Shown here: in pieces, positions 11,242 to 21,378 of the stretch
Numbering within the stretch: the stretch's first letter is position 1
Layout of the letters: every line of letters begins with the position of its first letter
Assembly: GCA_016937175.1 (NCBI GenBank)
Contig: JAFGWL010000022.1
Coordinates: 1 to 36,334 of the forward strand
Length of the DNA stretch: 36,334 bases
Source: Candidatus Mcinerneyibacteriota bacterium
Lineage (GTDB): Bacteria; Macinerneyibacteriota; Macinerneyibacteria; Macinerneyibacteriales; DSCS01
Reading direction: 5' to 3'
The notes under the pieces: generated by a model
Database searches by the model: none
What the model was told of the DNA's origin: nothing
Seen by the model: only the letters and a program-made list of their open reading frames with translations
Program-made: the position numbers and the translations under genes

Positions 11242-12387
11242 TTACTGTAAAAAGATCTTCATGAGAAGATCAGAACCGAAAAGCATCCCGATGATCGAGA
11301 TGATCAAAGCGACGATCACCGCCCCCTTGATCATATCCTGGGCTTTGAGGGTCCCGAGAAGCAGCGGTTCACGGCTCAGATAAGCAGAAGCCGCATAGAG
11401 CTCTTCGCCGATAAGGGTATAGTCGCAGGCTGCAATAAAGAAAGGAAGCTGAGAGGTGGAGTCAGTACCGGCGATCTGAATGGCTCCCACGGTATTAGCC
11501 GTCTCGGCAAGCATCAGGGATTCTGCCCAAAACATACCCAGAAGAAAGACCGTGGCGGGTTTTTCGCGCACCATAGCGCCATTTACGGCAGCGGCATAGT
11601 CGAACTGGCCCACGGAAGCCAGATAGACGATCCCATCGTCATGGAGGTCCGCACGTCCCGCCGCCATATAGGCCTCCTTGACCACATCCTGTGCCACGGT
11701 GAGGACCACCGGGTCTTTGATGGGCACAGAGAAAGGGGTCTCATAGGTCGCCACCTGCTGTGCGACAGGGCGAAGGATATTCAAAGAAGCCAGCGTGGCG
11801 ATATCGTCGATGATGGATGTCCCGGGGATATAGTAGACGGGGCGTCCCATCTCCGTGGCACGTCCCACGGCATCATCGATGGCTTCCAGGCCGGCGATAC
11901 GACGGATGAAGATCTCCTGGCCCCGTTTAGCTTTACGGATAAGCACCATGATGAGGCCGATAAAGGCCATAGACCAGATAAAAGCCCCCACACGGTCGGA
12001 AAAGTACCATTGGGCGGAAGAGGTAGCCTCCTTGACCACGATGGGCCCCTGGCGCTGTCCCTGAGTATCATAGGCAAAGATCTCAGCCCGGACAATGCTT
12101 CCTTTCTTTTCAACCGGAACCGTATGAAGGAAAAGAGCTCCGGCGTTTTTCACCATGATTGTGTTGGAAAAAGTTCCGTCGATGTAGAGGTCGATGGCAT
12201 ACTGGGGCACCTCTTCGGCACTGTTGGCCGGCATAAACTCCAGCTCCACACTGATTCCGTCATCATTGGGAGTGTCATAGAGACTCACGTCACAGGCATA
12301 GAAGGGAGTCTCGTTATCTGTCTCCTGAGCGGCCAGAAGAGGAACGCTCAGCAGGGTCAATACAAGAATAAGCGTAATTTTTTTCAT
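11242..12387 (-). CDS. Cassette gene d, copy 2: signal peptide, beta domain, membrane helix and conserved cytoplasmic domain (DUF6754-like)
   Basis: The 381-residue product starts with a signal peptide (MKKITLILVLTLLSVPLLAA). An exported beta-rich domain (about 25-125, beginning DTPNDDG) resembles an Ig/fibronectin-like fold. A membrane helix (about 133-152) is followed by a basic RKAKRGQ stretch, which places the next domain inside. That domain (about 160-350) contains GLEAIDDAVGRATEMGRP, MVREKPATVFLLG, ETANTVGAIQIAGTD and YTLIGEELYAASAYLSREP. A C-terminal hydrophobic helix (about 355-375) ends it. From memory this matches the domain family catalogued as DUF6754; no function is known to me. 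The ATG at 12387 has GGAGG upstream and follows gene c by two bases. The core is 161/190 identical to copy 1 by hand alignment. Confidence 0.75.
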   Translation of the reverse strand: MKKITLILVLTLLSVPLLAAQETDNETPFYACDVSLYDTPNDDGISVELEFMPANSAEEVPQYAIDLYIDGTFSNTIMVKNAGALFLHTVPVEKKGSIVRAEIFAYDTQGQRQGPIVVKEATSSAQWYFSDRVGAFIWSMAFIGLIMVLIRKAKRGQEIFIRRIAGLEAIDDAVGRATEMGRPVYYIPGTSIIDDIATLASLNILRPVAQQVATYETPFSVPIKDPVVLTVAQDVVKEAYMAAGRADLHDDGIVYLASVGQFDYAAAVNGAMVREKPATVFLLGMFWAESLMLAETANTVGAIQIAGTDSTSQLPFFIAACDYTLIGEELYAASAYLSREPLLLGTLKAQDMIKGAVIVALIISIIGMLFGSDLLMKIFLQ

Positions 12388-12389
12388 CT

Positions 12390-13097
12390 CTACCCTCCTA
12401 TGGTCTGTTTTAAGAGCGGCCACCACTCATTGAAGATGAAGTTCATCCGGCCGATGAAGAGGCTGATCCGGCCCATAAAGGTATAGCCGAAAGAGGCCCC
12501 GAAGCCGATCATGAGGTAGAAGAGCGCCGGTTTGTTAGCAAATTTCACCATGGGATGGTCATGTTTTACAGAAAAGAAGAAGTAGACCAGGACCACGATG
12601 ACCCCGAAGACGAGAAGCGGGCCGGCTGTGGCCAGATCCAGAGTCTTGAGGGAGGGGTTTTTGAAAAAATCACCGATGAGATGGCCGTTGAGAAGCGGCT
12701 GTCCCAGGTCGTCCACCACGGTTCCTCTGATCTGCGTAAGGATATTGGTCTTGAAAGAAGCCACAATGGCGTAACCGCTCCAGAATCCCACAGTTATGGA
12801 GATGGGATAGCGGCTCACCCATTCGACTTTACGCGAAAAGCGGGCTAAAAAGAGAAGCCCGATGAGAGTGGCAATGACCAGCGAGATCAGTGTCAAAATC
12901 TGCCTGTTGTCAAGGGCCACAGAAATAGGGTCGACGATCTTTCTCATAATGATCTGGGAAAAGACCACGACCACCTGGTATCCCACCATTGTCCCCACAA
13001 AGAGATGTTCGGCAAACTTATAGAGAGGATTGTCCTTCCAGAGGAAGGAGAAGATGGCCAGGCTCAGCAACACAGCGATTGTATACCAGATTAACAT
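12390..13097 (-). CDS. Cassette gene c, copy 2: multi-pass membrane protein
   Basis: The 235-residue protein has about six predicted membrane segments and conserved stretches shared with copy 1: YKFAEHLFVG near residue 28, SRYPISITVG near 98, AGPLLVFGV near 160 and FGASFGYTFMGRISLFIGR near 200. I recognise no characterised family. The glycine-rich last segment with buried Arg residues could line a pore or pack against partner helices; that is inference. The ATG at 13097 is chosen because AGGTGG lies five bases upstream; an in-frame GTG at 13106 is possible. The gene lies between b and d, and its last codons contain the ribosome site for d. Confidence 0.65.
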   Translation of the reverse strand: MLIWYTIAVLLSLAIFSFLWKDNPLYKFAEHLFVGTMVGYQVVVVFSQIIMRKIVDPISVALDNRQILTLISLVIATLIGLLFLARFSRKVEWVSRYPISITVGFWSGYAIVASFKTNILTQIRGTVVDDLGQPLLNGHLIGDFFKNPSLKTLDLATAGPLLVFGVIVVLVYFFFSVKHDHPMVKFANKPALFYLMIGFGASFGYTFMGRISLFIGRMNFIFNEWWPLLKQTIGG

Positions 13098-13106
13098 AAA
13101 AACCAC

Positions 13107-14102
13107 CTACCTCTTGTTTTCCGCACGGCGTTTGAAAAAGTAGCCGAGGTTAGCCAGGATGATGAGGACAATGACATAAAAATGGGATGAGGCCTGGGAG
13201 GCCATCCCCGTCCGGGCTGTCTTCCGTGTGGAGAGATGCTCCCGCAGCTCTTCATCGGTAAAACCCGGGGCAAAGATCTTGGTATCCCAGGGAAAGTCAT
13301 CTTCGGGAGAATAGAGGTTTCTCAGGTATCTCTCTATGTCGTCTCCGATGATAGTGATTTCCAGGGCTTCCACGAGTTTCTCATACTCTGCGGCTCCTCT
13401 TAAGCCTCCCATCATCCCGATCATCTGATCGGTTTGGAGAAAGGGGTAGAACTCCGCTGCTGAGACCGCTGTGGTTCCGGTCGCGATCTTTTTGCCGTAA
13501 AGGGTGTTGGCATAGGTCACCCAGAAACGCGGATAAGATGTTCCCGAGACGGTGACGATAAGCCCTATGCTTTTGTAATTATAGATCTTGTTCAGCAGGG
13601 GAAGATCCGTACTGAGATTACCGTAAAAATCCTTGACCAGAAAATTGCGCACATCGCTTCCGAAGGCGATGACAGCAGCATTCATGGGGTAAGGGTATCC
13701 CATAAAGACAAAATCCTGCCCATAAACGGCCCTGAACTCTTTAGCGATATAAGTTGTGATCGTCTTGGCCAGGTCGATGGAATCGGGAAATGCCGACCAC
13801 GTGATGACGGGAATATTGCGCATGAAAGCATGGCGCAGGATACTCATGGTCATGGGGTCCAGCTCAGCGTTGGTGGAGGGGCTATAGTCAAAGGAGACCA
13901 ATATCCCCTGGGGAGTGTCGGGATGAGACTGATTATAGGCATAGATCCCTTCGATCTCGTCGTAGATATCCTTCACTTCAGGCATGACGGCAGGATTATA
14001 GGTCCATTTGGCCAAAAGAGGGATCATGACCACGATAAACATGATGACATAGAGGATCTTTTTGTCCAGAGACATGATCTTATCATACCAGGGTGTTCTC
14101 AT
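13107..14102 (-). CDS. Cassette gene b, copy 2: membrane-anchored extracytoplasmic domain related to the d domain
   Basis: The 331-residue protein has a positively charged N-terminus, one membrane helix (about 14-33), a long globular region and a C-terminal helix (about 303-321) followed by KRRAENKR. The positive-inside rule puts both ends in the cytoplasm and the globular part outside. The globular part shares a pattern with the cytoplasmic domain of d: LRHAFMRNIPVI resembles VGRATEMGRPVYYI, and TYANTLYGKKIATGTTAVSA plus FYPFLQTDQMIGMMGGLRGAAEYE resembles the matching d segment. No known function. The ATG overlaps the TAA of gene a by one base, with GGAGGTGGTGA upstream. Confidence 0.65.
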   Translation of the reverse strand: MRTPWYDKIMSLDKKILYVIMFIVVMIPLLAKWTYNPAVMPEVKDIYDEIEGIYAYNQSHPDTPQGILVSFDYSPSTNAELDPMTMSILRHAFMRNIPVITWSAFPDSIDLAKTITTYIAKEFRAVYGQDFVFMGYPYPMNAAVIAFGSDVRNFLVKDFYGNLSTDLPLLNKIYNYKSIGLIVTVSGTSYPRFWVTYANTLYGKKIATGTTAVSAAEFYPFLQTDQMIGMMGGLRGAAEYEKLVEALEITIIGDDIERYLRNLYSPEDDFPWDTKIFAPGFTDEELREHLSTRKTARTGMASQASSHFYVIVLIILANLGYFFKRRAENKR

Positions 14103-14725
14103 TATTCACCACCTCCCAGGTAAGACCGTTCGATACCTAACACGATCTTGATGGACGTGGCGACGATCCCCAGCCCGATCCCCACATTGACAGCTCGCAT
14201 GGCGGCTGTGGTGGGGACTTTCATGATCCAGGCGGTAATATCGTTAAATATGATGAAGGGGCCGAAGGCGACCCGTCCGATCATGACGATCACACCGGCA
14301 AGAAGCAGGACAGTAGCCAGCCAAGTCCGGGCCCTGAAGGCGCGGTAAGCAGCTGAAGTGATATAGAAGGCCAAAAGAGCGAACATACTGGCATCCAGGG
14401 GCACACGCACATAATTGTACATATTCTCAAAAAGGCCCTGGAGAGCCCCTTCCGGACGGAAATAACCTACAAGTCCGATAATGGTCATAAAAAACATGGC
14501 GATAAATGTCACATAACTGAAAAAGATATCTTTATGTTTCCGCCGGATCTTTGTCATATGATGGCGGGTCAGACTGGAAATGCCCACAGCCAGGGCGAAG
14601 GCGGCGATGATCGCCATCCAGTCGAGCATTGTATCCATCAATCCCTTCAGGGCAGGCACCATCTGAACGATGATCCCGATGATCCCGAAGAAGAAAGCCA
14701 GAAACAGAGGCAGCGTTCTCTTCAT
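14102..14725 (-). CDS. Cassette gene a, copy 2: six-helix membrane protein
   Basis: The 207-residue protein has about six predicted membrane helices. A conserved basic cytoplasmic loop (HHMTKIRRKHKD) lies between helices 2 and 3, and FYITSAAYRAFRARTWLA lies around helix 4. The C-terminus GIERSYLGGGE is identical to copy 1. I recognise no characterised family. The ATG at 14725 is chosen over 14743 because AAGGAG lies eight bases upstream and the length then matches copy 1. It is the first gene of the cassette, under its own TTGCAG-17-TATATT promoter. Confidence 0.65.
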   Translation of the reverse strand: MKRTLPLFLAFFFGIIGIIVQMVPALKGLMDTMLDWMAIIAAFALAVGISSLTRHHMTKIRRKHKDIFFSYVTFIAMFFMTIIGLVGYFRPEGALQGLFENMYNYVRVPLDASMFALLAFYITSAAYRAFRARTWLATVLLLAGVIVMIGRVAFGPFIIFNDITAWIMKVPTTAAMRAVNVGIGLGIVATSIKIVLGIERSYLGGGE

Positions 14726-14769
14726 AAGGTTGACTCCTTCCATTCGTTTAAAGTACAGGTCTTGATGAA

Positions 14770-14798
14770 AATATACTCTGCTTTCTTTTCATCTGCAA
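14770..14798 (-). promoter_or_regulatory. Sigma-70-like promoter of cassette copy 2
   Basis: TTGCAG (14798-14793) and TATATT (14775-14770) are separated by 17 bases. The predicted leader is about 38 bases and contains the AAGGAG ribosome site. It lies downstream of the copy 1 terminator, so the two cassettes can be expressed independently. Confidence 0.6.
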
Positions 14799-14860
14799 TA
14801 ATAAAAGTGGCCTGCCTTTTATACGCTTTTGCCTCTTGATTGTTGTCTTGAAAAGAAGAA

Positions 14861-14889
14861 AAAAAAGGGGGAGGCGGAGACCCCCCCTT
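14861..14889 (-). terminator. Rho-independent terminator of cassette copy 1
   Basis: Just after the stop codon of gene d (14896), AAGGGGG and CCCCCTT arms form a hairpin on the minus strand. A run of T follows. Confidence 0.75.
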
Positions 14890-14895
14890 ATCAGT

Positions 14896-16035
14896 CTACC
14901 ATTGAGGATTCAGAAATGAATCCATGATAAAATCTACTCCCAGAAGCTGAAAAATAACAGCCAGGACAAAGATCACAAGAAGGATCCCTTTGAGGATATC
15001 CTGAGCTTTCAGGGTCCCCAGCAGCAGAGGTTCCCGGCTCATATAGGCTGACGCCGCATAGAGCTCCTCTCCGATGAGAGTATAGTCACAGGCTGCAATG
15101 AAGAAGGGCAGCTGTGAAGAGGCATCGGTCCCGGCGATCTGGATAGCCCCTACACTGTTGGCAGTCTCAGCCAGGATGAGAGATTCAGCATAGAACATCC
15201 CCAACAGAAAGACCGTGGCGGGTTTTTCACGGACCATGGATCCGGAAACCGCTCCGGAGTAGTCAAATTGCCCCATGGAAGCCAGATAGGCTATCCCGTC
15301 TTCATAAAGATCCGGACGTCCCGCTGCCATATAGGCCTCCTTGACCACATCCTGGGCCACAGAGACCACGATGGGGTCTTTGACCGGAACTGAAAAGGGC
15401 GTCTCATATTTGGCCACCTGACGGGCCACAGGCCTTAAAATATTGAGCGAGGCCAGTGTCGCCACATCAGCCATGGAGGATGTTCCCGGAATATAGAAGA
15501 CCGGGCGTCCCATTTCCGTGGCTCTTCCCAAGGCGTCGTCGATAGCTTCCAGTCCGGGTATCTTCCGGATAAAGAGGTCCTGTCCCCTCTTGGCCCGTCC
15601 TACATAGAAGATGATAAGTCCGATAAAGAGAAGCCCCAGGATGAAGGCCTTCATGGAATTCATGTTGAGCCATTCCCCCTTGCTCACCACATCCACAGCC
15701 CCCAGGTCCGTCAGGCTTCCGTCGGGAAGGACTCCCTGGACTTCGACTTTGACGGGAACTCCGGCCTGATGGGTGATCAGGGGAAGAATAACGGGTTTCC
15801 CCGCGTTCACCAGCCGGCGTACCCGCACCGGTTTCTCTCCAATGGTAATATTCAGCAGAAATTCCGGCACCTCTTCGGGAGAAGCAAGGGGCCGGAATGT
15901 CAACTCCACCTGTTCTCCTGCATTATTGGGTGTATCACGCAGGAAAAACTCCGCCGGAGCACTCTCCTGCGCAAAAATAAGCGGCAGGAAGAAGAACAGG
16001 GCACAACCGATCAATACAAATACTTTCTTTTTCAT
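14896..16035 (-). CDS. Cassette gene d, copy 1: signal peptide, beta domain, membrane helix and conserved cytoplasmic domain (DUF6754-like)
   Basis: The 379-residue product has a signal peptide (1-22), an exported beta-rich domain (about 24-125, DTPNNAG at the start), a membrane helix (128-145) and a basic GRAKRGQ stretch. The conserved domain at about 157-347 and a terminal helix (349-370) follow. In the domain, GRATEMGRPVFYIPGTS, SLNILRPVA, AQDVVKEAYMAAGR, MVREKPATVFLLGMF and SQLPFFIAACDYTLIGEELY are nearly invariant between copies. The exported domain is only loosely conserved. The ATG at 16035 has AGGAGGG upstream and follows gene c by ten bases. The domain looks like an alpha/beta enzyme or binding fold, but no known catalytic motif is evident. 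Confidence 0.75.
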   Translation of the reverse strand: MKKKVFVLIGCALFFFLPLIFAQESAPAEFFLRDTPNNAGEQVELTFRPLASPEEVPEFLLNITIGEKPVRVRRLVNAGKPVILPLITHQAGVPVKVEVQGVLPDGSLTDLGAVDVVSKGEWLNMNSMKAFILGLLFIGLIIFYVGRAKRGQDLFIRKIPGLEAIDDALGRATEMGRPVFYIPGTSSMADVATLASLNILRPVARQVAKYETPFSVPVKDPIVVSVAQDVVKEAYMAAGRPDLYEDGIAYLASMGQFDYSGAVSGSMVREKPATVFLLGMFYAESLILAETANSVGAIQIAGTDASSQLPFFIAACDYTLIGEELYAASAYMSREPLLLGTLKAQDILKGILLVIFVLAVIFQLLGVDFIMDSFLNPQW

Positions 16036-16045
16036 GCTCACCCTC

Positions 16046-16762
16046 CTATCCGCTGACCATGTTTTTGAAGATGGGCCACCATTCATGGAAGATAAAGTTC
16101 ATCCTTCCGATGAAAAGGCTGATACGTCCCATGAACGTATACCCGAAGGATGCCCCGAAAGCCACCATGAGATAGACCAGTGCAGGATTCCGGGAAAAGC
16201 GGACCACCGGGTTGTTGTTCTTCAAAGAGAAAAAGAAGTAGACGATGACAACAAAGACCCCGAAGACCAGAAGCGGCCCGGCCATGGCTTCAAAAAAGAA
16301 GTTATGCAGGGTGGGGTGCTTGAAAAAAGTCCCGATCTTTTCGGCATTGAGCAGAGAATCCCCGGCAGGGTCTACAACAGTCCCGTGGAGCTGGCTCAGG
16401 ATCCGCGCCTTCAGGCTGGGGATGATGGAATATCCCGTGAGGTAGCCCACAGTGATGCTGATGGGGTAGCGGCTCACCCAGCTCCAGTTCTGTGAAAACC
16501 GGGAAAAGTAGAGAAAACCGACGATGATCCCCAATCCCAGCCAGATGGCCAGAAGTACATCGCCGTCTCCCAGAGCCCTGCGGAAAGGGTTCCAGACACG
16601 GGGCAGGAAGAGGTTCGTGTAACTGACAAAGATCGTATATCCTACAGACACGCCCACGAAAAGGTGTTCTGCAAACTTATAGACCACATTATCCCTGAAG
16701 AGAAAGGAGAAGACGGCCAGCGTAAGAAATAAAGCAATCGTCATCCATATAAACATACCCAT
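16046..16762 (-). CDS. Cassette gene c, copy 1: multi-pass membrane protein
   Basis: The 238-residue protein has predicted membrane segments at about 4-22, 32-52, 68-87, 99-117, 158-179 and 193-216. It shares VYKFAEHLFVG, SRYPISITVG, MAGPLLVFGV and FGASFGYTFMGRISLFIGRMNFIF with copy 2. The last segment is the most conserved part of the protein. No family is recognised. The ATG at 16762 has GGAGG five bases upstream; alignment with copy 2 would also allow ATG 16756. It follows gene b by nine bases. Confidence 0.65.
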   Translation of the reverse strand: MGMFIWMTIALFLTLAVFSFLFRDNVVYKFAEHLFVGVSVGYTIFVSYTNLFLPRVWNPFRRALGDGDVLLAIWLGLGIIVGFLYFSRFSQNWSWVSRYPISITVGYLTGYSIIPSLKARILSQLHGTVVDPAGDSLLNAEKIGTFFKHPTLHNFFFEAMAGPLLVFGVFVVIVYFFFSLKNNNPVVRFSRNPALVYLMVAFGASFGYTFMGRISLFIGRMNFIFHEWWPIFKNMVSG

Positions 16763-16771
16763 ACTCCCCTC

Positions 16772-17776
16772 CTACTTTTTACTATTCCGCATCCGGGCGA
16801 AATAGGCGATATTTCCGATGATAATGAGGATAATGACATAAAAGTGGGCCGTGGCCTGGGGCGCCATCCCCTGACGGGCTGTGCTTCTCCGGGCCAGGCT
16901 CAGCTGGATCTCTTCCGGAGTAAACTCAGGAGTGTAATACGCGGTATTATACCGGATGAGGTCCTTGCCGTCATAGAGTGTCTCCAGGTAGGATCTGGTG
17001 TCACTCCCGTTGAGTTTTTTCTCCAGTTTTTCCACCAGCTGCTCATATTCGGCAGCTCCTTTGAGTCCTCCCATGAGGCCCACCATCTGGTTGGTCTGGA
17101 GAAAAGGGTAATATTTGGCAGCAGAGACCGCCGTTGACCCCGTGACCACCATCTTGCCGTAGAGTCCGTTGGCATAGGTCACCCATGACTCAGGATAGGA
17201 GGTCCCGGACATGGAAAAGACCAGGCCTATACGGTTGAAATTGTAGATATCTTTAAGCAAGGGAAGCTCTCTTGTGTCGTTTCCCGCCTTGTCACTGGCA
17301 AAGAAGGTCTTGACGTCTGTAGCCAGGGCGATGATAGCCTGGACAAAAGGATAGCCGTAACCCAGGAAGACATAGTCTTGACCGTAGACAGCTCCGTAAT
17401 CCTTGGCGATGAGATGCATATCCTGCTCCCCCAGGTCCACACCTGTGGGAAGCCCTGCCCAGGCGATCACGGGGATCCCGCGCAGGAAGGCATGCCTCAG
17501 CGTGGCAAAGGCCATGGGATCCAGTTCAGCCATGGTGGCCGGATCATAATCGAAAGCGATAAAGATGGCCTTTTTGTTCTCAGGGTTTTCCTCATTGTAT
17601 TGATAGAGCTGCTCCATATGATCGTAGATCCTCTGGACTTCATCTGTGACATAAGTACTGATCTGCATTTTGAAGAGGACCGGCAAAGCGACCACGAAAA
17701 ACATGATAACATAGATCACCTGTTTGGGTATGTTCAGTAGTTTTTCATACCAGACGTTTTTATCTTTTGTCATCAT
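16772..17776 (-). CDS. Cassette gene b, copy 1: membrane-anchored extracytoplasmic domain
   Basis: The 334-residue protein has an N-terminal helix (about 20-38), a globular region and a C-terminal helix (about 307-325) with a basic end. Conserved motifs shared with copy 2 are AELDPM, LRHAFLRGIPVIAW, AVYGQDYVF, SGTSYP, TYANGLYGK, STAVSA, YYPFLQT and GLMGGLKGAAEYEQLVE. Charges predict the globular part outside. It resembles the cytoplasmic domain of d at low identity, which suggests an internal ancestral duplication within the cassette. The ATG overlaps the TGA of gene a (ATGA). Function unknown. Confidence 0.65.
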   Translation of the reverse strand: MMTKDKNVWYEKLLNIPKQVIYVIMFFVVALPVLFKMQISTYVTDEVQRIYDHMEQLYQYNEENPENKKAIFIAFDYDPATMAELDPMAFATLRHAFLRGIPVIAWAGLPTGVDLGEQDMHLIAKDYGAVYGQDYVFLGYGYPFVQAIIALATDVKTFFASDKAGNDTRELPLLKDIYNFNRIGLVFSMSGTSYPESWVTYANGLYGKMVVTGSTAVSAAKYYPFLQTNQMVGLMGGLKGAAEYEQLVEKLEKKLNGSDTRSYLETLYDGKDLIRYNTAYYTPEFTPEEIQLSLARRSTARQGMAPQATAHFYVIILIIIGNIAYFARMRNSKK

Positions 17777-18399
17777 TCACCACCCCCGAGATAGGAACGT
17801 TCGATCCCCAGCATGATCTTGATGGCCGTGGCTACCATTCCCAGGCCGACACCGATCATGATCCCGCGCATGGCGGCGGTGTTGGGGATAAGCATAAGCC
17901 AGTTGGTCACCTCTCCGAAGATCATCAGCGGGCCAAAGGCCACACGCCCCAACATGACGATGAACCCGGAGACCAGGAGAGTCCCCGCCAGCCAGGTCCG
18001 AGCCCGGAAAGCGCGGTAGGCCGCCGAGGAGATGTAGAAGGCCAACAGGGCGAACATCGTAGCATTCAGAGGGACCATGATATGGCGATAGAGGTTGTCG
18101 GCGAAATCTTTCCATAATGAATTGGGATTGTAATACCCTGCGATGGAAACGGTGGCCATGACCACCAGCGCCGTAAAAGTCACAAAACTGAAAAACTGGT
18201 CCTTATGTTTCCGTCTGATCTTTGTGGCATGATGCCGGACCAGGCTGGCCAACCCGATGATCACCGCAAAAGATGAGATGGACGCGATCCAACTGTTGAT
18301 GGGATCGATGAATCTATCCTGCATAATGGGCGAGATCTGCAGAAGGATCCCGATCACAGCAAAGATAAAGGTTATAATGACAGGCAGCTGTCTCTTCAT
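17773..18399 (-). CDS. Cassette gene a, copy 1: six-helix membrane protein
   Basis: The 208-residue protein has predicted helices at about 5-23, 35-54, 69-89, 110-130, 137-157 and 175-195. The cytoplasmic loop HHATKIRRKHKD (56-67) and the block MFALLAFYISSAAYRAFRAR are almost identical to copy 2. So are GRVAFGP and the end GIERSYLGGGE. No known family. The ATG is preceded by AAAGGAG at a normal distance. It heads the copy 1 operon. The last codons (LGGGE) are purine-rich and double as the ribosome site for gene b. Confidence 0.65.
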   Translation of the reverse strand: MKRQLPVIITFIFAVIGILLQISPIMQDRFIDPINSWIASISSFAVIIGLASLVRHHATKIRRKHKDQFFSFVTFTALVVMATVSIAGYYNPNSLWKDFADNLYRHIMVPLNATMFALLAFYISSAAYRAFRARTWLAGTLLVSGFIVMLGRVAFGPLMIFGEVTNWLMLIPNTAAMRGIMIGVGLGMVATAIKIMLGIERSYLGGGE

Positions 18400-18567: not shown

Positions 18568-19866
18568 CTAAAAGAGCGTCTTGCTGCTCAGATAGAAGTC
18601 TTTCACAAGAAGCGAGGGGGTAAAGACCGAATACCAGGAGTCCACAAAACCGCTCCCTTTTCCGATATCGATGACATCCCGCATCATGCGCAAGGGAGAG
18701 TCATTCCAGCGGAAGTGCGTCGCCCCGGTCACGATCTTTCCGTCTTCCACATAGAAGAAGCCGTTACGTGTCATCCCGGTGAGAGTGAAATCCTCCATCC
18801 TCACCATGCGGATATACCAGAGGTCTTTAATATAAAAACCCCGGCCCATGGAGGCCAGGAGTTCCTCTTCAGTCTTCTCTCCGTCGCTGATGATGACATT
18901 GGAAGCACTCCAGGGTTCGTAGCCGTTCTTTTCGGCCCAGAAGCGGGAGCAGGGAATATCCTTCAGAACCCCCTTCTCGATCATCATCCTCTGCGGGACA
19001 GCCAGCCCCTCGGAGTCGAAGGGCATAGAGGGAGCACTCGGGCAAGCCGGATCCGTTCCGATGGAGATCCGGGGATCGATGAGCTTCTCCCCTATTTTCC
19101 CTGAGTAGGGAGAATAGCCTTCATCCACAGCCTGCCGGTCCGCTCCGAAAAAACCCATCCAGATCATGAGTTTGGAGGCCGCCTGAGCGGATATCAGGAC
19201 GTTGTATCGGCCCGGCTCAAACTCTTTTCTCTTTTGAAGCAGTTCGGCGTCTTTCAGGGCCTTCTCAAAATCTTTCTCCGGCTGCATGGAAGCCAAGTCG
19301 TATCCGTTGGAGAAGGAATTCCCTTTCTCCCCGTTCTTGTCAATGGTATTGGAATAGCCTGCGGAAGTGTTCTCATAATATTTCATCAGTCCGTTGGCCG
19401 TGGCGAGTCCTGTGGCTTTCAGGGTATGGAAGACCGTCCCGAAAGCAGTGACATGATGTTTTCCCGCCTTCTCTATGGTTCGGGCGGCGATGGCAGCCCG
19501 CTCTTCCGGTCCGGCTTTGAGGACCTCTGGATCCACCATGAGTCCCACCATCTGTCCGTCATCCTCCAGAGTCGGTAGATACTCCTTGTCTTTCACAGAG
19601 GATTCTGCTGCCTGTTCGCTTTTCCTGACCAACTCTTTTAACCCCTCTTCGCTACAGTCGGCGCTGGCCAGGGTGGCTTTTTTGCCGTCACGCCAGACTG
19701 TAAGGGAGACTTTTTCCCGCAGGGCATCAATATTCTGAGTCACTTTATTGTCGGCAAAGCGCGTCAGAGCTTCATTTTCGTTCTCATATCGCAGGATATA
19801 ATCATCGGCCTCTGTCTTCTTGCCGATAAATTCGACGATTTTCTGGAAACGTTCTTTCTTATCCAT
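18568..19866 (-). CDS. pmbA: TldE/PmbA-type subunit of the TldD/TldE metalloprotease
   Basis: The 432-residue protein is similar in fold to TldD but lacks the HExxxH metal site, as expected for TldE. Recognisable parts are an N-terminal region (TRFADNKVTQNIDALREKVSLTV) and a C-terminal barrel region ending FLLS-type (VKDFYLSSKTLF). TldD/TldE heterodimers degrade unfolded peptides and, in some bacteria, mature modified peptides such as microcins or act on antitoxins. The ATG at 19866 has GGGAGGTG six bases upstream and overlaps the end of tldD by eight bases. The pair is a two-gene operon ended by a strong terminator. No peptide precursor gene is visible nearby. Confidence 0.9.
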   Translation of the reverse strand: MDKKERFQKIVEFIGKKTEADDYILRYENENEALTRFADNKVTQNIDALREKVSLTVWRDGKKATLASADCSEEGLKELVRKSEQAAESSVKDKEYLPTLEDDGQMVGLMVDPEVLKAGPEERAAIAARTIEKAGKHHVTAFGTVFHTLKATGLATANGLMKYYENTSAGYSNTIDKNGEKGNSFSNGYDLASMQPEKDFEKALKDAELLQKRKEFEPGRYNVLISAQAASKLMIWMGFFGADRQAVDEGYSPYSGKIGEKLIDPRISIGTDPACPSAPSMPFDSEGLAVPQRMMIEKGVLKDIPCSRFWAEKNGYEPWSASNVIISDGEKTEEELLASMGRGFYIKDLWYIRMVRMEDFTLTGMTRNGFFYVEDGKIVTGATHFRWNDSPLRMMRDVIDIGKGSGFVDSWYSVFTPSLLVKDFYLSSKTLF

Positions 19867-21304
19867 TGAAGGCACCTCCCACATCAATATTCCTGAACCT
19901 GGCCGGAGCCGATCCATGGGTCATCTGCTGTGTCTGTGACGGTTCCCCTTTGCCGCAGTTGAGGACTCCGTAGGGTTCCCAGAACCGCTCGTCACAGATC
20001 GCATCACAGGCATTCCAGAATTCAGGTGTGATCGCCTGATAGATCACGTCTTTGAGGGGCTTTGTGATCTTCCCCTTTTTGATCTCATAAAACATGTCTC
20101 CGCCGAACTGAAAATTATACCGTCTCTGGTCGATGGAAAAACTCCCCATCCCGTCGATGAGGATCCCGTCTTCGGTGTCGGCGATGAGCTCATCCAGGGA
20201 GAGAGGCTCTTTTCCTGGTTCGAGGCTGAGGTTCGGGATACGATTGATGGGCTGGGACGCGTAGGAATCAGCCCGGTTACAGCCCATGCTCTCCGCATCT
20301 CCGATAAAGTGAGCTGTGTCCCGTGTGGTCCCGTAATTTACAAGGATGCCATCTTTGATGATGGGCCATCTCTTCCCGACGATCCCGTCATCATCATTTC
20401 CCCAGGTGGCCAGCCCCCCTTCAAGGGTATTGTCGGCGGTAAAATTGACTAAAGGAGAACCGTAACGGAACTGATTTCTCTTTTCCGGGGTGGCAAAAGA
20501 GGTCCCTGCAAAATTTGCTTCCCACCCCAGGACACGGTCGAGTTCCGTGGGATGCCCTACAGATTCGTGTATAGTCAGACAGAGATGGGAAGGTAGAAGG
20601 ATGAGGTCCTTTTTCCCTGCAGGACCACGGTCAGCTGAAAGTTTTTTCATCACATCTTCGGCGACTTCATCGGCCCTGTCTACTATTTTCAGCGATTCTA
20701 TCCACTCGAATCCCGCATTTTTAGGGTATTCAGGCAGGCCCCTGGTCTGGAAATCCCCCTGCCCCACAGCTGTGGCATTATAGGTCGCCGCCGAAGTATA
20801 GACAAGATTTTCCAGGTCGGCCCCTTCGGTGGAGAGAAAATGTTGATGCATCCGGCGGAAGTACATCCGCCCCGAAACGCGTTTGATCGCCTTCCGGGCT
20901 GCCATCTTCTCATAAGCGGCGATGAGCATACCGGCCTTTTCTCCCAGAGGGATATCAAAGGGGTCTTTCTCGATCTTTGTCTTGAAGACTCCCCGGGCGG
21001 GTTTATCCTGTGTGAGCTTGATGGGTTCCTGCACCACCACAGCTGCTGCTTTGGCTATGGCTACAGCCTTTTTCACTGTTTTCCGGATGTCCTCCTTTGT
21101 CAAAAAAGGTGTCGCGGCAAAACCCCAGCGCCCCTTCACCAGGACCCGGACCCCGATTCCCAGTTCTGTAAAATTATCCACGTACCGTAAGGCATCGTTT
21201 TGTGTCATGATGATCTCGCGGTCTGTCCGGCGAAGACGGGCATCCCCGTAGTCGACGCCTTCAGCCGACATGGCCTCAACGGCCCATTGTGCGATTTCTT
21301 TCAT
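19859..21304 (-). CDS. tldD: TldD-type catalytic subunit of the TldD/TldE metalloprotease
   Basis: The 481-residue protein contains the zinc-binding motif HESVGHPTELDR near residue 256, the HExxxH site of TldD. The following conserved region has GTSFATPEKRNQFRYGSP. Together with the neighbouring TldE-like protein it should form the cytosolic peptidase. Three in-frame starts are close together (GTG 21313, ATG 21310, ATG 21304). The last is preferred because AAGGGGTGAT lies at the best distance. A weak promoter (TTAGAA with TATAAG, 18-base spacing) may precede it. Confidence 0.9.
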   Translation of the reverse strand: MKEIAQWAVEAMSAEGVDYGDARLRRTDREIIMTQNDALRYVDNFTELGIGVRVLVKGRWGFAATPFLTKEDIRKTVKKAVAIAKAAAVVVQEPIKLTQDKPARGVFKTKIEKDPFDIPLGEKAGMLIAAYEKMAARKAIKRVSGRMYFRRMHQHFLSTEGADLENLVYTSAATYNATAVGQGDFQTRGLPEYPKNAGFEWIESLKIVDRADEVAEDVMKKLSADRGPAGKKDLILLPSHLCLTIHESVGHPTELDRVLGWEANFAGTSFATPEKRNQFRYGSPLVNFTADNTLEGGLATWGNDDDGIVGKRWPIIKDGILVNYGTTRDTAHFIGDAESMGCNRADSYASQPINRIPNLSLEPGKEPLSLDELIADTEDGILIDGMGSFSIDQRRYNFQFGGDMFYEIKKGKITKPLKDVIYQAITPEFWNACDAICDERFWEPYGVLNCGKGEPSQTQQMTHGSAPARFRNIDVGGAFNG

Positions 21305-21378
21305 ATCCATCACCCCTTATATTTCGGTTTACTAAATAATTCTAAGGGATGGAGGAGTAAAGGTCAAGAAAAATTGAT

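Follow-up and report, generated by a model that had tools for sequence, protein, structure and literature searches.

Two four-gene cassettes in tandem

The window analyzed here is a 36,334-nucleotide stretch of DNA (contig JAFGWL010000022.1, positions 1 to 36,334 of the forward strand, assembly GCA_016937175.1) from a Candidatus Mcinerneyibacteriota bacterium. Between positions 11,242 and 18,399 it carries, on the minus strand, two full copies of a cassette of four membrane-protein genes, arranged a-b-c-d then a-b-c-d, head to tail. All eight genes are complete in the list of open reading frames (ORFs), and the two copies align end to end. The cassettes probably specify the membrane-bound half of an envelope complex, powered by ATP and apparently undescribed, whose cytoplasmic motor would be encoded elsewhere in the genome. 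The features, all on the minus strand, are as follows:

17773-18399 (-): a copy 1, 208 aa, multi-pass membrane protein that opens cassette 1; family A3, E 4e-81
16772-17776 (-): b copy 1, 334 aa, N- and C-terminal transmembrane (TM) segments and an exported alpha/beta domain; family A2, E 6e-109
16046-16762 (-): c copy 1, 238 aa, multi-pass membrane protein; family A4, E 2e-76
14896-16086 (-): d copy 1 (ORF; likely start 16035); PF20539, E 8e-111
14864-14889 (-): terminator-like hairpin 3' of cassette 1, 9-bp stem followed by a T-run
14102-14743 (-): a copy 2, 213 aa; family A3, E 2e-85
13107-14102 (-): b copy 2, 331 aa; family A2, E 8e-104
12390-13106 (-): c copy 2, 238 aa; family A4, E 2e-78
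11242-12426 (-): d copy 2 (ORF; likely start 12387); PF20539, E 1.6e-108

The genes are tightly packed in both copies, as the initial annotation of this region had proposed: a and b overlap by 4 nt in copy 1 and 1 nt in copy 2, and b and c are separated by 9 nt and 0 nt. The signal-peptide methionine of d lies at 16035 in copy 1 and 12387 in copy 2, 10 and 2 nt past the c stop; the apparent c/d overlaps arise because the earliest possible d start was taken. The hairpin at 14889-14864 bears out the terminator assigned to copy 1. A separate promoter for each copy, also assigned at that stage, was not supported: i) the promoter scan found 7 sigma-70-like sites in the region, against 7.6 +/- 2.9 in shuffled sequences; ii) the site ahead of copy 1 (18458-18431) is weak; and iii) no sigma-70-like site was found in the gap that separates the terminator from the first gene of copy 2.

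Anatomy of the cassette proteins

The a and c proteins span the membrane several times, with several hydrophobic segments in a copy 1. The b protein is anchored by a TM segment at either terminus, with an alpha/beta domain exported in between. The d protein consists of a signal peptide, an exported fibronectin type III (FN3)-like domain, a TM segment, a DUF6754 domain and a C-terminal TM segment; in the topology analysis positively charged flanks place the DUF6754 domain on the cytoplasmic side. Both d copies match DUF6754 (PF20539) at 362 and 370 bits (cut-off 27) over model positions 2-256 of 257, which confirms the family resemblance given in the initial annotation. The FN3 fold of the exported domain was recognized by comparing profile A1 with PDB chains. 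This exported part is the most variable region of d. It is missing altogether from one homolog (L072, 266 aa in total), and the longest forms, about 1000 aa in total, carry several FN3-like domains, in some cases together with a lipobox-like signal.

The a, b and c proteins gave no significant match in Pfam, NCBIfam or PHROG. Among the cassette proteins and the M and B proteins described below, the FN3 part of d alone matched the PDB; no relatives were found there for a, b, c, B, M or the DUF6754 domain. AlphaFold2 (AF2) models built from four sequences gave a Rossmann-like exported domain for b copy 2, in a model of medium quality with a predicted template-modelling score (pTM) of 0.65. For d copy 2 confidence was high in the exported beta domain alone (residues ~45-135). 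A motif resemblance had hinted that b and d, or a and c, are paralogs. This was rejected with hhalign probabilities of <3%, and no sequence kinship was found among a, b, c and d.

Divergence, selection and duplication

Gene by gene, copies 1 and 2 are 51-58% identical end to end, whereas each copy is 79-93% identical to its own counterparts in a sister genome, the metagenome-assembled genome 'Bacillota bacterium SpSt-1200' (L004). This pattern fits the earlier proposal that two specialized versions are being kept. Both copies are under strong purifying selection: compared with the L004 orthologs, the ratio of nonsynonymous to synonymous substitution (dN/dS) is roughly 0.02-0.1 in all eight genes, with a copy 1 at about 0.02. 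The 28 columns that are invariant across 47 members of the d family are all intact in both d copies, and a check for an inactivated copy found none.

The genome of the window also contains a third cassette, on contig C27, with the order d-a-b-c. Trees for each of the four genes concur in placing the a-b-c-d cassettes of this lineage in one group, apart from its d-a-b-c cassette. At another locus (L041), two of the three copies pair identically in the trees of all four genes. The cassette has therefore duplicated as a unit. A mobile-element origin was considered and rejected, as no plasmid or viral copies were found.

A larger module with a predicted cytoplasmic ATPase

In 39 loci from other genomes and contigs, d, a, b and c almost always sit side by side, usually in the order d-a-b-c, and each locus carries one to three tandem cassettes. 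In genome G137 d stands without adjacent a, b and c. Two further genes recur directly upstream on the same strand, one encoding M, a MutL-family ATPase of about 620 aa (range ~610-640), and the other B, a protein of about 375 aa with barrel-sandwich and KOW signatures. Upstream of M-B are genes for two small proteins, e (~90-170 aa) and f, the latter with two TM segments and a weak match to bacterial PH domains. In many families f-e-M-B-d-a-b-c form one operon. Across very different lineages the mean conservation is ~64% for M and ~63% for B. In the window's genome f-e-M-B are found on contig C68. Thus the system first described as two copies of four genes is partly confirmed, in that the four genes belong together, but the genome has three cassettes and the module includes M, B, e and f, which escaped the initial annotation because they sit on another contig.

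M matches the whole of the MutL model (PF13941) with an E value of 1.1e-128. Its ASKHA motifs, DCGSTTTKA, DIGGATTD and GSGGVLSH, fall in invariant or near-invariant columns, and no ATP-binding cassette (ABC) domain was found in it. In some genomes M and B are represented by a single chain of ~1000 aa, in which a MutL-like ATPase is joined to a barrel-sandwich B-like part (L081:7878-10925 on contig C8 of G000; also L087, L088 and L132-L135). The fusion in the window's genome, that of contig C8, has the layout HTH-MutL-BSH, the N-terminal helix-turn-helix (HTH) resembling the XRE type; a regulatory function is therefore possible for this relative of the motor pair.

A partnership of M with glutamate mutase was tried and rejected. 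The large subunit of that enzyme, MutE, occurs in 1 of 40 d-positive genomes, where it has its own separate GlmL next to it; in four d-negative genomes MutE likewise adjoins an ordinary GlmL. In a tree with several long branches, made by a quick method, module M, the M-B fusions and divergent M fall on one side and GlmL on the other, with a support of 100. For B, repeated weak matches to RnfC_N and NQRA_N were obtained (9 and 3 of 15 members, best E 9.4e-6). No Pfam match to other Rnf/Nqr subunits or domains was found in a, b, c, d, f or M. The lipoyl/biotinyl hairpin of B has no invariant lysine, the candidate lysines varying among the 15 members. A literature search found no paper naming DUF6754 or PF13941; its other topics yielded analogies only.

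A divergent version of the module (L104:6232-10758, L103:10079-12199) has a b protein with a very long predicted cytoplasmic N-terminal tail containing dozens of 'P-x-W-L' repeats, preceded in L104 by a zinc ribbon. The C-terminal tail of M in L104 bears the same motif, which is perhaps a docking motif.

Other neighbors were noted in the lineage of the window. Immediately upstream of the window's cassettes are the genes of a TldD/PmbA metallopeptidase pair (18568-21313, minus strand), as also in L004 and L041; this arrangement was seen in this lineage only. Downstream of the lineage's d-a-b-c cassette (L042:11040-13694, L043:3581-6087) are a gene for a tetratricopeptide-repeat (TPR) protein and a gene of the phosphoglucose-isomerase family; the latter also occurs in L044.

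Co-inheritance across bacteria

The distribution of the module was followed in a varied sample of 386 bacterial genomes, most of which represent separate families. The d gene is present in 102 of these. All 100 genomes with a and all 97 with B are d-positive, as are 92 of the 94 with module-type M, the other two being incomplete assemblies. Fisher P values for co-occurrence are 1e-91, 6e-86 and 2e-74, the genomes not being independent. Among 52 d-negative genomes, b was found in none and c in one, G089, whose assembly is 85% complete and contains M as well. The proposal that the four products belong together is thus supported by gene contiguity in nearly all of 41 loci, near-perfect co-occurrence and selection on both copies; the rare co-occurrence that would have spoken against it was looked for and not seen.

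In G137, a single closed 6.4-Mb contig, d and B lie near 0.29 Mb, M at 0.79, c at 2.30 and b at 3.53. These genes are scattered yet all kept; therefore their association is not merely operon hitch-hiking. In three other genomes (G062, G203, G333) every component that was detected has diverged together with the others; G333 carries e-d-a-b-c-M as a single operon. The module can be common within a phylum: d occurs in 97 of 99 genomes of the phylum of G142, mostly as two or three copies of distinct length classes, and in 37 of 139 genomes of the phylum of G137.

The copy numbers of membrane and cytoplasmic parts differ. The 97 B-bearing genomes contain 191 d genes and 98 full-length B genes, and 48 of the 49 multi-cassette genomes have exactly one full-length B, the number of cassettes per genome ranging from one to six. 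The presence of a single B alongside several cassettes, whose d proteins vary most in the exported part, points to a cytoplasmic unit that several envelope units may share.

A proposed ATP-driven envelope complex

The best explanation, and in our judgment a probable one, is that the cassettes specify the membrane half of an envelope complex driven by a shared cytoplasmic motor. The products are predicted to assemble physically, with a and c as the multi-pass core. The b protein would hold its exported alpha/beta domain between two membrane anchors, and d would present its variable FN3 region outside and its strongly conserved DUF6754 domain to the cytoplasm. Energy would be supplied by the cytoplasmic pair, M as an ASKHA ATPase and B as a barrel-sandwich/KOW adaptor, with e and f as small accessory proteins. 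M and B may engage the DUF6754 domain, and ATP cycling would then drive movement or assembly across a/c and the exported parts. As the copy numbers suggest, one M/B pair may serve several paralogous d-a-b-c complexes that differ mainly in the exported part, in which case a shared motor with exchangeable specificity units would be the working principle. The data establish the composition, topology class, joint inheritance, selection and gene linkage of the module; the physical complex, its coupling to ATP and a role in transport or assembly are inferences.

Several observations weigh against this model. B is absent from five d-positive genomes and a strong M match from ten, some of them incomplete or divergent. 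One single-contig genome (G060; C1:3817000-3821000, L084) has d, a, b and c, and neither M nor B was found in it. In the window's own genome M/B and the cassettes are unlinked, so their partnership rests on other genomes. Among the structure predictions, the AF2 model of b has a generic fold, its best PDB match not being significant (E 3e-3, TM-score 0.24), and the DUF6754 domain gave no usable AF2 model, with a per-residue confidence (pLDDT) of ~30. A sensor, chaperone or envelope-assembly role would fit the same pattern.

The module is kept in about a quarter of the sampled genomes and in nearly all of one phylum; with such wide retention it is almost certainly important to its host cells. 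No family name exists for five of the eight parts, and the sole named membrane component is a domain of unknown function (DUF). If the model is right, the module represents a novel type of envelope complex powered by ATP, and the purpose of a large, distinct branch within the MutL ATPases would be accounted for. The parts list, a motor in single copy and a complete chromosome with scattered genes open this model to direct tests. A broader formulation, advanced tentatively and somewhat short of an even chance, is that of a new class of envelope machine: a MutL-type ASKHA ATPase with a barrel-sandwich adaptor would be the common cytoplasmic motor for several exchangeable d-a-b-c complexes that extend to the cell exterior. 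Such a machine would be near-universal in one phylum or more and, over part of its distribution, coupled to the cleavage of glycine and the attachment of lipoyl groups.

Alternative explanations

One alternative, which is also the best lead to the substrate, is compatible with the envelope complex: the system might be tied to glycine cleavage or lipoyl metabolism, importing, exporting or handling glycine, lipoate or a lipoyl-linked product. It is rather unlikely. In 8 of the 35 M-bearing loci, representing six families, genes for gcvP subunits lie no more than two genes upstream of f-e-M-B (L092, L058, L062, L093, L109, L113, L114 and L116). The most extensive case is L092, in genome G136, with the overlapping genes gcvT-gcvH-gcvPA-gcvPB-f-e-M-B-d-a-b-c-lplA. 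The M proteins of these six families are 64-71% identical between families, no closer than average. Genes resembling lplA are near the module in three loci, and in the window itself a gcvT gene, encoded on the strand of the cassettes, lies upstream of them at a distance of a few genes. On the other hand, the lplA-like matches are below NCBIfam cut-offs, the lipoyl-like domain of B lacks an invariant lysine at its modification hairpin, as described above, and glycine-cleavage enzymes function without the module in other bacteria. The field is treated as a lead, because most M loci (27 of 35) have no such neighbor.

A second alternative makes M and B a reactivase or chaperone pair in the style of the glycerol/diol dehydratase reactivases, which repairs or reloads an enzyme while the membrane part senses or localizes the pair. 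M belongs to a family of ASKHA ATPases that includes the glutamate-mutase accessory protein, and the known glycerol dehydratase reactivase combines an Hsp70-like ATPase domain with a swiveling domain (PMC7674605). The M-B fusions and the eight loci with glycine-cleavage genes would also agree with such a role. However, four membrane proteins with exported domains, in one to six sets per genome, would not be expected for the reactivase of a soluble enzyme, and M does not track glutamate mutase. This explanation is considered improbable.

It was also considered whether the cassettes are accessory subunits of a potassium system, as trkH-trkA adjoin the 3' end of cassette 2 on the same strand in both the window and the sister genome. 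The linkage is restricted to the window's genus and is absent beside other cassettes, including the third one of the same genome. Moreover, a near-consensus sigma-70-like promoter (11/12, spacer 16) at 11198-11171 on the minus strand, between d copy 2 and trkH, suggests that trkH-trkA-asparaginase is a separate transcription unit. A Trk role is largely refuted and very improbable. Finally, a recent functionless duplication, as the head-to-tail arrangement might imply, is refuted by the low identity between copies, the dN/dS values and the recurrence of tandem multi-copy arrays in unrelated genomes.

Comparison with known systems

The named families cover the module in part. Over its full length the cytoplasmic domain of d belongs to DUF6754, for which Pfam states no function, and the partners a, b, c, e, f, M and B are outside the Pfam description. 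M is in the same family as MutL/GlmL (PF13941) and keeps the ASKHA motifs, but it is ~610-640 aa long against ~460, forms a separate clade, co-occurs with d, a and B rather than with MutE, and is linked to a membrane complex. B shares a weak N-terminal barrel-sandwich match with RnfC/NqrA but has no other part of these proteins, and the module has no Rnf/Nqr subunit.

The dehydratase reactivases resemble the module in having an ASKHA-like ATPase and a second part, M and B being fused in some genomes. They differ in having no membrane proteins, and neither a sequence match nor a B12 link was found for the module. In group II energy-coupling factor (ECF) transporters one ATP-using module is common to several membrane units (PMC7755397). 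The ATPase of the module described here is of the ASKHA superfamily, not ABC, and no homolog of EcfT or of an S-component was found among its parts. With different ATPase superfamilies, the likeness to ECF transporters is functional only; the copy numbers, one M/B pair per one to six cassettes, fit a motor that may be shared in a similar way.

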